Source: Neptunicella marina
GTDB lineage: Bacteria; Pseudomonadota; Gammaproteobacteria; Enterobacterales; Alteromonadaceae
Direction: 5' to 3'
Assembly: GCF_014270035.1 (NCBI RefSeq)
Contig: NZ_JACNEP010000004.1
Span: forward strand, 124,001 to 188,000
DNA length: 64,000 nucleotides
Shown in pieces: positions 16,306-63,711 of the stretch. The position numbers and the translations under genes are program-made. The notes below the pieces were generated by a model. The model was not told where the DNA came from. It did not search any database and was given only the letters and a program-made list of their open reading frames with translations. The first letter of the stretch is position 1. Every line of letters begins with the position of its first letter.

Positions 16306-17691
16306 ATGAAATCGCCAGAATTATTGTCCCCGGCTGGGTCGCTTAAAAATATGCGTTATGCCTTCGCGTACGGTGCGGATGCGGTTTATGCCGGTCAGCC
16401 GCGCTATTCGTTGCGGGTACGTAATAACGAGTTTGATCACGACAATCTGGCACTGGCGATTAACGAGGCACACCAGCTGGGCAAACAGTTTTATGTGGTC
16501 AATAACATCGCGCCACATAATGGCAAACTCAAAACCTTTTTAAATGATTTAGCGCCTGTGGTCGCAATGCAGCCCGATGCCTTTATTATGTCCGACCCCG
16601 GCTTAATTATGCTGGCCAAAGATGCCTATCCAGATTTGAATATTCACCTGTCGGTGCAGGCCAATGCGGTGAACTGGGCGTCGGTAAAATTCTGGCAACG
16701 GCAGGGCATTTCACGGGTGATTTTATCGCGCGAATTATCCATTGAAGAGATTGAAGAAATCCGCCAGCAATGCCCGGATATGGAGCTGGAAGTGTTTGTA
16801 CACGGTGCGTTGTGCATGGCCTATTCTGGCCGTTGTTTGTTATCCGGTTATATCAATAAACGTGACCCTAATCAGGGCACCTGTACCAATGCCTGTCGCT
16901 GGCAGTATCAAATTAACAGCGCCGAACAGGATGAAATGGGTAATCTGCAACCGGGTGATGTGCTGGCAACGGGCAATTATGCCGGTGGTTGTGGTGAGCA
17001 AAGCGCATCGCCATTATTTGTGATGCAGGAATCCGGTCGCCCCGGTGAACTAATGCCCGCCTTTGAAGATGAACACGGCACTTATATTTTTAACTCGCGC
17101 GATTTACGTGCGGTGCAGCATGTGGAGCGCCTGCTCAAAATCGGCGTGGATTCACTTAAAATCGAAGGGCGTACCAAATCGTTTTATTACTGTGCACGTA
17201 CCGCGCAAATTTACCGTCAGGCCATGGACGATGCACTGGCAGGCAAAACCTTTAATCCGTCACTTATGCATGAGCTGGAGCATCTGGCCAACCGTGGTTA
17301 TACCGATGGTTTTTTAAAGCGCCACAAACAGCACGGTGATTTACAAAACTACGATTACGCCAGCTCTGTCAGCGATACCCAACAACTGGTGGGCGAAGTG
17401 ATCGAAAAGCAAAACAACCGCTATCTGGTTGAGGTCAAAAACAAGTTTGTGGTTGGCGATACGCTGGAACTGATTAGCCCGGCAGGTAACCACAGCTGGA
17501 CCATTACACAAATGTGGGACAAACAGGGCAATGTGATTACCGATGCCAAAGGCTCGGGTCATCATGTATGGCTTGAACTGCCTGTAGAAGTAAAACCTGA
17601 ATTTTGCATTGTGGTGCGCCATTTACCCCACAGCCAGACCACACGCAGCCAGTTTGTCAGCCAGATTCCACTGGCTACCCAGGTTGATTAA
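16306..17691 (+). CDS. trhP: tRNA 5-hydroxyuridine synthase, U32 peptidase family
   Basis: Homolog of E. coli TrhP (YegQ), needed with prephenate for 5-hydroxyuridine at position 34 of certain tRNAs. The N-terminus SPAGSLKNMRYAFAYGADAV and the cysteine region (HGALCMAYSGRCLLSGYIN, GTCTNACRW) match YegQ almost residue for residue; those cysteines are thought to bind an iron-sulfur cluster. Length (461 residues) is as in the family. I chose ATG 16306, five bases after TGAGG; a GTG lies directly before it. A ferredoxin gene follows at 15 bases. Confidence 0.95.
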   Translation: MKSPELLSPAGSLKNMRYAFAYGADAVYAGQPRYSLRVRNNEFDHDNLALAINEAHQLGKQFYVVNNIAPHNGKLKTFLNDLAPVVAMQPDAFIMSDPGLIMLAKDAYPDLNIHLSVQANAVNWASVKFWQRQGISRVILSRELSIEEIEEIRQQCPDMELEVFVHGALCMAYSGRCLLSGYINKRDPNQGTCTNACRWQYQINSAEQDEMGNLQPGDVLATGNYAGGCGEQSASPLFVMQESGRPGELMPAFEDEHGTYIFNSRDLRAVQHVERLLKIGVDSLKIEGRTKSFYYCARTAQIYRQAMDDALAGKTFNPSLMHELEHLANRGYTDGFLKRHKQHGDLQNYDYASSVSDTQQLVGEVIEKQNNRYLVEVKNKFVVGDTLELISPAGNHSWTITQMWDKQGNVITDAKGSGHHVWLELPVEVKPEFCIVVRHLPHSQTTRSQFVSQIPLATQVD

Positions 17692-17705
17692 TACGCAGGT
17701 TAATC

Positions 17706-17948
17706 ATGGCATTACAAATTTTAAATAGTTGTATTAACTGCGATATGTGCGAACCGGAATGCCCTAATCAGGCGATTTTTATGGGCAAAAAGGTCTATGA
17801 AATAAACCCGGATAAATGCACCGAATGTATTGGTCACTACGACGAGCCACAATGCGTGGCTTGTTGCCCGATTGACTGCGTCAAACCCGATCCTGCCCAA
17901 CCTGAAACGGAAGAAACAATACTGCAAAAGTTGGAGCAGCTGGGGTGA
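17706..17948 (+). CDS. yfhL: YfhL-family 4Fe-4S ferredoxin
   Basis: Small electron carrier of 80 residues. Two cluster-binding motifs are visible: CINCDMCEPECP (residues 9-20) and CTECIGHYDEPQCVACCP, the second with the longer spacing typical of YfhL/Alvin-type ferredoxins. It lies 15 bases after trhP and is probably co-transcribed, which suggests it may supply electrons to the tRNA hydroxylation step (inference from position). ATG 17706. Confidence 0.92.
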   Translation: MALQILNSCINCDMCEPECPNQAIFMGKKVYEINPDKCTECIGHYDEPQCVACCPIDCVKPDPAQPETEETILQKLEQLG

Positions 17949-17964
17949 TTTCAGTACCTAATTG

Positions 17965-18690
17965 CTAATAGTGAACAATGTCTGAACTGCATAACTGATT
18001 GGTTTGCTTAGAAAATACGGAAATATTGCTGCGCACCAACCTTTTGTCATTAAAGTAAAGTTTGGGCGTCGCGTTGGCGACAGCAACCAGAGAGGTTGTG
18101 CTGCCGCAACCTCTCTGGACTCACCCGGCACCCACACTGTGCCAGTTCAATTTCAAATTCAGGCAAACTGCCAGCGTCGCAAATCCACATCCCTTCAGTT
18201 GCGACTGACTCGGCATCCCTGCCTCGTCTGGCAGTTCGCTAATCTGAATTTTAAATTGGTCACAGTGATGGGGAAATAAGTCAGCCGTTGGCTGACTAGG
18301 AAAACCAACACTGTCAAACTTCAAGGCGATAGCAGACAAGCTTTAGCTTGGCTAATCGCGACTCCAATTTGCCTTGTGCAGGTGAAACTTGTTCGAACGG
18401 GAAAACAGGACGTTTTCCCGAGGTGCGTGCTTTGCACGGATAGCTGCCTCGCACCGGTTCGATAAAACAAGTGATACCGGAACAAGATCAGCAAATTGGC
18501 GGAGTACAGGATTCTTTCGCCTCTTTCTTATCCATAAGAAAGGGGCTCGCCCCGCAAGGAAGCGGGGAGAAAAAGCTAGGGATAGCAATTAATATTTTAA
18601 TTTGTTACTTATAGTTCAAAGGATTAGGTCTGAGACAGGTTGCGGTAGAAAAATGACCCAATTGCTCACTATTAAATTTGTAGGCATACA
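17965..18690 (-). repeat. Hairpin-rich dispersed repeat, copy 1
   Basis: Non-coding unit between yfhL and a lipoprotein gene, read on the minus strand. It is homologous to sequences at 60165-60650 and 63241-63645. It holds a series of hairpins: 18068-18081 (GTCGC/GCGAC), 18087-18118 (12-bp stem, loop CGGCAGCA on the minus strand), 18280-18296 (GTCAGCC/GGCTGAC), 18337-18350 (CAAGC/GCTTG), 18399-18419 (GGGAAAAC/GTTTTCCC), 18523-18542 and 18550-18567 (CCCCGC/GCGGGG). The outer ends carry imperfect inverted 15-mers, 17965-17979 and 18661-18675 (13 of 15 matching). Open frames inside are short and not conserved as protein. Function unknown. Confidence 0.85.
18618..18680 (+). repeat. Conserved leader in front of a cassette-like gene
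   Basis: A roughly 60-base segment containing GGTTG.GG.AGAAAAA, then ACCCAAT and CTCACTATTAA, lying 23 bases before the ATG at 18703. The same segment occurs inverted at 60164-60225, again just before a hypothetical gene. It could be a promoter/leader or the terminal part of the repeat. Confidence 0.65.
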
Positions 18691-18702: not shown

Positions 18703-18933
18703 ATGAAGCCGTGGACTAATTTATTGCCATTAGTATTTTTAGTTGGATGTACAACTGCAAATACAGTTTATGAAAGGGACGGCAAACAAGCGATACTAAT
18801 TGAATGTGGCGCAGCAGTGTCATTCTCTGTGTGCCATGATCGAGCCAAGCAGGAATGCCCAAGTGGCTATACAACGTTATCTGAAAACGCTGGGTTCAAT
18901 CGTAAAGAACTCAGAATTAGGTGTAATCCATAG
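18703..18933 (+). CDS. Small hypothetical lipoprotein
   Basis: 76-residue protein with a lipoprotein signal (PLVFLVGC, Cys 16) and a mature part of about 60 residues with four further cysteines, suggesting two disulfides in the periplasm. I do not recognise its family. ATG 18703 follows AAGGA. It lies between a copy of the dispersed repeat and an attC-like site that starts 4 bases after its stop codon, so it looks like the content of an integron gene cassette. Composition is more AT-rich than the housekeeping genes around it. Confidence 0.7.
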   Translation: MKPWTNLLPLVFLVGCTTANTVYERDGKQAILIECGAAVSFSVCHDRAKQECPSGYTTLSENAGFNRKELRIRCNP

Positions 18934-18937
18934 CCAT

Positions 18938-19061
18938 GCCTAACAAACAGCAGTACGAGAGCCAGGCAAAATACACCGGACAACAGGAATCAAAGGGGTC
19001 AGAGTTGTTGATATTATACCAAATCAATTACTCTGACCCTTTTGGTACTCAAGTGTTAGGC
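18938..19061 (+). other. attC-like recombination site
   Basis: 124-base segment bounded by GCCTAAC (18938-18944) and GTTAGGC (19055-19061), a perfect inverted pair fitting the integron core-site consensus RYYYAAC / GTTRRRY. Inside these, AGTAC (18952-18956, following AAACAGC) can pair with GTAC of GGTACTCAA near 19045-19050, giving R and L boxes as in an attC. The centre is filled by a REP-like palindrome. Length is similar to Vibrio cholerae repeats. It separates two unrelated hypothetical genes in the same orientation, as expected of cassettes. Confidence 0.6.
18991..19044. repeat. REP-like palindrome
   Basis: Two 24-base arms with four mismatches: the left arm begins CAAAGGGGTCAGAGT and the right arm ends ACTCTGACCCTTTTG, separated by about six bases. 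Sequences of the GGGGTCAGAGT type are familiar as dispersed palindromes in many proteobacteria, some near REP-associated transposases. No transposase is present here. Confidence 0.65.
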
Positions 19062-60129: not shown

Positions 60130-60163
60130 ATGACTAGCTCCTGCATTTGAATATATGTACAAC

Positions 60164-60225
60164 AACTTAATAGTGAGAGATTGGGTTGTTTTTCTGCCAC
60201 AACCAACCTCGTTTTTATCCTTTGG
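60164..60225 (-). repeat. Conserved leader in front of a cassette-like gene, second copy
   Basis: Minus-strand counterpart of 18618-18680: GGTTG.GG.AGAAAAA, ACCCAAT and CTCACTATTAA in the same order, ending about 35 bases before the ATG at 60129. Confidence 0.65.
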
Positions 60226-60650
60226 CTTATTAGTACCAGATTAATAAAAGCTTTACCAATTGTAGGTTTAGTGTGTATTTGCCCTTGTACATCTTTATTA
60301 AACTTTCTAAATCATCCCTGATTTTTTCACGCCCAGTCCTATGGGCGCGACCCTGTTTTGAGGCACCAAAACAGGGGAAAAGTGCTCTACTCCGCCAACT
60401 TGCTGATCTTGTTTCGGTATCACTTGTTTATTCGAACCGGTGCGAGGCAGCTATCCATGCAAAGCACGCACCTCGGGAAAACGTCCAGTTTTCCCGTTCG
60501 AACAAGTTTCACCTACACAAGGCAAGTTGGAGTCGCAATTAGCCAAACTCTGTTTGGCTGCTGTCGCGGTGATAACTGAAAGCTCTGGTTTTCCAGGTCA
60601 GCCCGCGGCTGACTTATATTGCCAGCACCGTGGCCAATTTAAATTTTAAA
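60165..60650 (+). repeat. Hairpin-rich dispersed repeat, copy 2
   Basis: Same element as at 17965-18690 but inverted. Hairpins: 60330-60347 (CGCCCA/TGGGCG), 60351-60376 (CCCTGTTTTG/CAAAACAGGG), 60475-60495 (GGGAAAAC/GTTTTCCC), 60542-60558 (GCCAAAC/GTTTGGC) and 60597-60613 (GTCAGCC/GGCTGAC). It breaks off at CCAATTTAAA near 60647, inside the end of the next gene, so the second half found in copies 1 and 3 is lost. Confidence 0.85.
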
Positions 60651-63227: not shown

Positions 63228-63240
63228 TTGTTAACGCCCA

Positions 63241-63645
63241 TTCAGCGGGAAAACGTCCTGTTTTCCCGTTCGAACAAGTAACACCTACACAAGGCAAGTT
63301 GGAGTCGCAATAAGCCAAACTGCGTTTGGCTGCTGTCGCAGAGATGGTTGATAGTGTCGGTTTTCCTGGTCAGGCCAAAGCCTGACTTAATCTACCCATT
63401 CATTGTGGCCAATTTAAAAATTCAGATTAGCGAACAGCCAGACGAGGCAGGGATGCCGAGTCAGTCGCGACAGAAGGGATGTGGATTTGCGACAATGGCA
63501 GTTTGCCTGAATTTAAAATTGAACAGGCACAGTGTGGGATGCCGTTGGGTTCTTAGGGAATTGCGGCAGCACAATTCCCTGAGCTGTTGTCGCCGGCGCG
63601 ACGCTCAGAGTTAACTTTTATGACAAATGGTTAGTGCGAAGCATT
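63241..63645 (+). repeat. Hairpin-rich dispersed repeat, copy 3
   Basis: Same element and orientation as copy 2, but lacking the leader half. Hairpins: 63247-63267 (GGGAAAAC/GTTTTCCC), 63314-63330 (GCCAAAC/GTTTGGC), 63369-63386 (GTCAGGC/GCCTGAC), 63555-63580 (AGGGAATTG/CAATTCCCT with loop CGGCAGCA) and 63589-63602 (GTCGC/GCGAC). The middle portion 63405-63540 is close to copy 1 along its length. Confidence 0.85.
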
Positions 63646-63711
63646 ACTCGGTATCTTCGATAAACGGTCTAAATCGTCCCCGAAGGGACGTGAAATAAAA
63701 GATGTTTATGG

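Follow-up and report, generated by a model that had tools for sequence, protein, structure and literature searches.

A recurrent hairpin of Neptunicella marina belongs to the pseudoknotted 3' domain of a dispersed, TwoAYGGAY-like element

The 64,000-nt window considered here, that is, the whole stretch of Neptunicella marina DNA that was analysed, contains two hairpins that carry the same 8-nt loop on largely different stems. This raises the question of whether the loop is a conserved recognition site or one part of a larger structure. The first hairpin (18087-18118) has a perfect 12-bp stem, and its loop reads TGCTGCCG on the plus strand and CGGCAGCA on the minus strand. The second (63555-63580) has a perfect 9-bp stem, which reaches 12 pairs including one T-G when read on the plus strand, with the loop CGGCAGCA on that strand. 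Both hairpins, first pointed out in the first-pass annotation, are real and share their loop in the RNA sense of the element, read from the minus strand at 18 kb and from the plus strand at 63 kb. The accompanying statement that the stems have only their last three base pairs in common is nearly right: compared as 12-mers, the 5' arms agree in the three bases next to the loop and in 2 of the 9 others. No tRNA or tmRNA was found in the window.

The hairpin is part of a repeat dispersed in the genome. Using positions 17950-18250 as a query, blastn detects it at 29 places of the own genome; 19 places are detected by a covariance model built on the hairpin domain. The loop CGGCAGCA is present at 19/19 of the latter (positions matched by hand), an identity that is based on the model search matched to a loop-anchored collection and not on that collection itself. 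At these 19 places, 15 stems are perfect over 12 bp, three contain one G-T (RNA sense) and one has a mismatch; three stem types are found, CCAGAGAGGTTG, CTTAGGG... and CCAAGGG.... Three copies of the repeat lie in the window (about 18.0-18.7 kb, 60161-60616 and 63236-63658), and nhmmer shows that the repeat modules recur in several combinations and orientations. The parts of the window copies are as follows.

18011-18060, minus strand: repeated 3' tail (nhmmer module TAIL).
18068-18081, minus strand: 3' hairpin GTCGC-CAAC-GCGAC; 3 of 5 pairs changed on both sides.
18087-18118, minus strand: hairpin with 12-bp stem and 8-nt loop CGGCAGCA; perfect pairing, 10 of 12 pairs changed on both sides.
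18119-18125, minus strand: 7-nt linker GGTGAGT between pseudoknot strand and stem, from aligned copies; its length is equal in the 27 copies of the A1 set by choice of register, and a few copies have a longer linker.
18126-18132, minus strand: pseudoknot 5' strand GGTGCCG (RNA sense); pairs with loop positions 1-5 and covaries.
18134-18276, minus strand: branched TwoAYGGAY-like domain, a long stem around two GGA-loop hairpins (RF01731, 27.9 bits, E 0.053; consensus fold).
18212-18223, minus strand: GGA-loop hairpin GGC-AGGGAT-GCC; GGA in 25/25 flank-matched copies (17 own, 8 congener).
18277-18328, minus strand: segment between the divergent arms, with hairpin AGTCAGC/GCTGACT (nhmmer module TER5).
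18345-18505, plus strand: opposite arm, TwoAYGGAY-like (YYHP), loops AGGAC and CGGAT (nhmmer; loop GGA counts).
18515-18586, plus strand: further GGA hairpins CCCCGC-AAGGAA-GCGGGG and GCTA-GGGA-TAGC (hairpin calls, nhmmer).
18602-18682, plus strand: conserved end of the opposite arm (ZEND; nhmmer).
60161-60616, minus strand: second copy, an arm with GGA hairpins and without the pseudoknot domain or this hairpin (nhmmer).
63236-63322, minus strand: third copy, truncated opposite arm (nhmmer).
63395-63534, plus strand: third copy, TwoAYGGAY-like core (nhmmer).
63536-63602, plus strand: third copy, 67-nt pseudoknot domain with loop CGGCAGCA (match of the domain model R1 at G000:C41:187536-187602, 74 bits).

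Beside the 18-kb element lie a small ORF (18703-18930) and then GCCTAAC...GTTAGGC (18938-19061); the latter resembles an integron attC site, judged by the attC consensus, so that a lone cassette may adjoin the element. In one congener copy (L041), an insert at 1587-1777 separates two GGA hairpins and contains GGGC-AGGAA-GCCC.

Is the loop itself conserved beyond this genome? In the congener and in other genera it reads AGGCAAG, CGGCAAGA, CGGCGAA, CGTCGCTT, CGGCGCTA, CGGAGGCA, CGCC and others. Invariance, noted in the first-pass annotation for two copies, does not hold as a general rule and fails outside the own genome, where further copies with variable loops, the observation named there as speaking against the idea, are indeed found. 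A 7-nt strand located 7 nt 5' of the stem changes together with the loop in these organisms, the strand/loop pairs being UGCCG/CGGCA, CGCCG/CGGCG, UGCCU/AGGCA, AGCGACG/CGUCGCU, AGCGCCG/CGGCGCU and CUCCG/CGGAG. Because loop and strand change together, the loop is one side of a pseudoknot, and the evidence for this structural conclusion is strong. Its apparent invariance in the own genome is then explained by shared descent and by binding to the partner strand. Accordingly, the loop as an invariant protein site was rejected, since loops vary and covary with the upstream strand across genera; what stands of the binding-hairpin reading is that a nucleic-acid structure with a covarying stem has been selected. 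Nothing in these analyses pointed to a strand-exchange site.

The covariation was quantified in the A1 set of 27 copies, which were chosen for pairing of the stem and of the 3' hairpin, not for pairing of the pseudoknot. Changes on both sides affect 6 of the 7 pseudoknot pairs, in addition to the stem and 3'-hairpin pairs listed above; pair 4-34 of the pseudoknot is unsupported and is unpaired in 20 of the 27 copies. For the whole structure, A1 contains 120 double-change cells, versus 36.6 in shuffles and 9 to 24 when the structure is slid. A1 represents 27 of 54 rows, those left out being 13 one-base-shifted duplicates, 2 antisense rows, 7 further own-genome copies, 2 further copies from an array in genome G091 and 3 copies with a longer linker. 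In the fixed register, the longer-linker copies form 2 to 3 of the 5 pairs, and L016, an own-genome copy left out of A1, forms only 4 of 5.

Genomes outside the model give the same picture. There, 107 matches from 35 loci were reduced to 51 distinct combinations by removing duplicates, rows shorter than 60 nt and loops longer than 12 nt; one weak antisense row stayed within this set. With the registers allowed (linker 7-9, offset 0-1), at least 4 contiguous pairs are formed in 39 of the 51 copies, versus 15.7 (sd 2.5) when the loops are shuffled, and none of 5000 shuffles gave as many. Adding eleven loci absent from the 51-copy test (five from G126 and six from G512) gives 42 of 60 copies, versus 15.7 (sd 2.7) and again 0/5000; the other 18 of the 60 are without 4 contiguous pairs. 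A looser count without fixed register finds at least 5 pairs in 46 of 58 copies, versus 38.5% of cross-genome combinations. The pairing is absent in the tested copies of 4 of the 24 genomes (G061, G094, G116, G126).

What accompanies the pseudoknot domain? Scanned against Rfam at E up to 1, the window copy matches a single family, TwoAYGGAY (RF01731), with a score of 27.9 bits, below the gathering score of 43; no Rfam family, those of the CsrB/RsmZ class included, has a match at gathering score in the window. Two terminal GGA-loop hairpins on a common stem, as in TwoAYGGAY RNA, are present in the window core. The strict AYGGAY form of the loop is absent from this core, whose loop is AGGGAU; AUGGAY occurs in some other copies. 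In the own genome, ten sub-threshold RF01731 matches are found at E <= 0.02 (best score 38.3, also below the gathering score) versus none in 14 control genomes; seven of the ten lie in copies of the YYHP module, the 18-kb copy not being one of them, and three lie outside the loci taken in. When 16 repeat loci were compared with Rfam at gathering scores, 17/17 matches were to TwoAYGGAY. Among relatives in the family, scores reach 72 bits, and RF01731 has matches in 39 of 98 family genomes, above the gathering score in 26 of them. The 67-nt domain matched no Rfam family where it was scanned.

At E <= 0.01, the domain model R1 has matches in 33 of the 98 genomes of the family and in 22 of its 52 genera, and a genome carries up to 19 copies. 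At E <= 0.001, it is found in 15 of 197 genomes of an order sample (7 outside the family, four of those weak) and in 3 of 274 genomes of a class sample (one outside the family). The two motifs frequently adjoin, and in several genera a TwoAYGGAY RNA has the domain immediately on its 3' side. There are 66 RF01731 matches above the cut-off, and among the matches listed, 46 are in genomes with R1 and 20 in genomes without it. For 30 of the 46, again among the matches listed, a same-strand R1 match follows on the 3' side, in 28 cases at a distance between -13 and +22 nt; the other 16 have no adjoining domain among the matches listed, two of them, in G034, having a weak partial domain match beside them. 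A1 was partly built from loci found via RF01731, which makes this co-location circular for the genomes concerned; in genomes outside model building, which leave those out, the domain is 3' of RF01731 in 8 of 15 (counted by hand, among the matches listed).

In G126, G139 and G190 (by fold) and in G512 (by eye), no TwoAYGGAY-like hairpin pair was seen upstream of the domain. Since it occurs in other families without a visible upstream pair of this type, the pseudoknot domain looks like a module. In L122, L123 and L125 (G139, G190), the domain, with for instance UGUCG/CGACA, follows a different 5' region, and the GGA-loop hairpin pair was not seen in the folds displayed. The loci of G512 (L139-L144) represent a different dispersed repeat, from another family, with a similar hairpin, whose AUCGCGAU-like loop can pair with an upstream strand in 5 of 6 copies.

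Fixed loops do occur in these elements, in the neighbouring hairpins. Among perfect hairpins of the repeat loci examined, GGA/TCC leads the loop 3-mers, with 25 occurrences versus 6.5 expected in the own genome and 17 versus 3.1 in congener loci, counts that come from related copies and are not independent. In the whole window, GGA (5 versus 2.4 expected) is not the commonest; CAG leads with 12. Core hairpin 1 has GGA in all of the flank-matched copies listed above (26 regex matches, one unrelated hairpin dropped). Of the opposite-arm hairpins, the first shows GGA in 25 of the 26 rows in view and the second in 27/27, where it is preceded by any of the four bases. GGA is thus fixed while the stems and the base before it vary. 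The idea of a fixed loop motif on rewritten stems, put forward in the first-pass annotation for the pseudoknotted loop, does not hold for that loop and applies to the GGA of neighbouring loops in the same elements. Such fixed GGA loops suggest a CsrA-type protein, and a csrA gene is present in the own genome. CsrA binding by TwoAYGGAY has been predicted in PMC4333381, a paper attributed to Gardner and colleagues.

Wobble pairs inform on the strand. When the core is folded on each strand, 57 G-U to 8 A-C are counted on the GGA strand and 48 to 23 on the antisense strand. As the antisense fold also favours its own wobble, the comparison of strands was confined to pairs that the two folds share, for which G-T and A-C columns on the GGA strand stand at 32 to 10 (p 0.0009). 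To these counts the core contributes 14 and 7, the opposite arm 9 and 1, and the pseudoknot domain 9 and 2; the pair set of this domain was partly chosen by pairing, and without it the balance is 23 to 8 (p 0.011). This excess of G-T is more in keeping with a folded single strand bearing GGA loops, in the simplest case RNA. One possible function of such an RNA, intrinsic termination by the hairpin, was rejected because the 3' hairpin lacks a trailing U-run in the copies displayed.

From these data it can be proposed that the element is probably an RNA that titrates CsrA, occurs in many copies, may be mobile and carries a 3' pseudoknot domain not described before; the structure is well supported, whereas function and mobility are inferred. 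The 18-kb and 63-kb hairpins form the main stem of the 67-nt pseudoknotted 3' domain of this multi-copy structured RNA. In RNA sense, a long stem around two GGA-loop hairpins (TwoAYGGAY-like) is followed by the 7-nt strand, the 7-nt linker, the 12-bp stem and a short GC hairpin; the partner of the 7-nt strand is the loop of the 12-bp stem. The element would be transcribed, and its paired GGA loops would bind, and thereby titrate, the CsrA encoded by the genome; titration is here a reasoned deduction. The pseudoknot domain may protect or space the 3' end, or serve the spread of the element.

The arrangement of the copies bears on this last point. At least 21 pairs of neighbouring domains (less than 1500 nt apart) are divergent, 18 of them with gaps of 350-483 nt, which gives units of about 520 bp. 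In fourteen two-armed units, both ends are alike and the further flanks differ. In other genera, inverted pseudoknot domains form MITE-like inverted terminal segments at both unit ends; in the 18-kb window copy, the domain is present at a single end. In G091 (L064, C1; also G091:C1:3660687-3662540), TwoAYGGAY and pseudoknot units form tandem arrays, with a period of 576-577 bp in L064. Repeated, often head-to-head copies suggest that units multiply within genomes. Spread as a mobile unit is plausible, given the number of copies, their patchy occurrence and the homology between units whose flanks do not match.

These features would also suit a MITE-like element acting at the DNA level, in which a transposase encoded elsewhere would recognise the end hairpins in folded single-stranded DNA, any role of the RNA being incidental. 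Such an element would account for the dispersal over 29 blastn places, the closely spaced divergent domain pairs, the outer ends common to units with different flanks and the patchy distribution among genomes. It would also account for the best G063 match to a 4.6-kb G102 stretch, which is confined to the unit (1996-2545). For one G102 stretch, a match covers bases 1-877 and stops short of the unit, and comparing G102 stretches with G063, G062 and G022 gave unit-to-unit matches and no clean orthologous empty site. The flank 17300-17950 had no match in the congener, and no target-site duplication was seen by eye in the 14 units. Y1_Tnp (PF01797, RAYT) has no match in the own genome, whereas 5 of 14 control genomes are positive; a REP/RAYT system was rejected on this ground. 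Moreover, the GGA loops and the G-U/A-C asymmetry favour a single-stranded RNA role, although folded single-stranded DNA of the GGA strand could produce the asymmetry as well. Overall, we regard the MITE-like reading as possible and rather unlikely.

A cis-acting element of neighbouring genes, for instance one placing a flanking mRNA under CsrA-dependent control, appears improbable. The three window copies do sit between larger ORFs, and the Rfam type label of RF01731 is Cis-reg. The genes adjoining the window copies are however unrelated (ferredoxin and U32 peptidase; GGDEF protein; GH43), and elsewhere the units frequently diverge or are arrayed in tandem. Lastly, chance, or an ordinary repeat without selected structure, is hardly credible: the loop 8-mer alone is indeed not enriched in the window (5 matches versus 3.0 expected), but covariation across many genera contradicts this reading, as do folding z-scores of about -7.6 on both strands of 18060-18300.

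Returning to the proposed CsrA-titrating RNA, the Rfam family RF01731, of unknown function, gains a further domain with strong covariation; its genomic habit proves to be like that of a repeat and its organisation two-armed, and the predicted CsrA role and possible mobility of TwoAYGGAY become testable. If the elements titrate CsrA, activity of the regulator would be tied to how many copies of a repeat the genome carries. A bolder and doubtful extension, offered as speculation, is that two divergent structured RNAs, each with CsrA decoy hairpins and often sharing a pseudoknotted 3' domain, make up self-spreading noncoding elements whose copy-number expansion would tune a global post-transcriptional regulator in the family.

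Known systems resemble the element in part. REP/BIME, MITE and other palindromic repeats are dispersed repeats with inverted arms. The window element is likewise dispersed, lies between genes in the window and has inverted arms; it is set apart by two-armed units of about 520 bp, covarying pseudoknots and the absence of a Y1 transposase. The TwoAYGGAY motif was originally listed in PMC2864571; going by the available text, this RNA has a branched stem with two GGA-containing terminal loops, as has the window element, whose 3' pseudoknot domain falls outside the 168-position Rfam match. In the portions of the descriptions at hand (PMC2864571, PMC4333381), the 3' pseudoknot domain, head-to-head units and the high copy number of the repeat are unmentioned, and no earlier description of the domain was found in the open-licence literature. 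Finally, CsrA-titrating sRNAs of the CsrB/CsrC/RsmX/Y/Z type differ from the window element, for which CsrA binding is predicted, in that the latter consists of multi-copy repeats and carries a pseudoknot domain; both present paired GGA motifs in hairpin loops.
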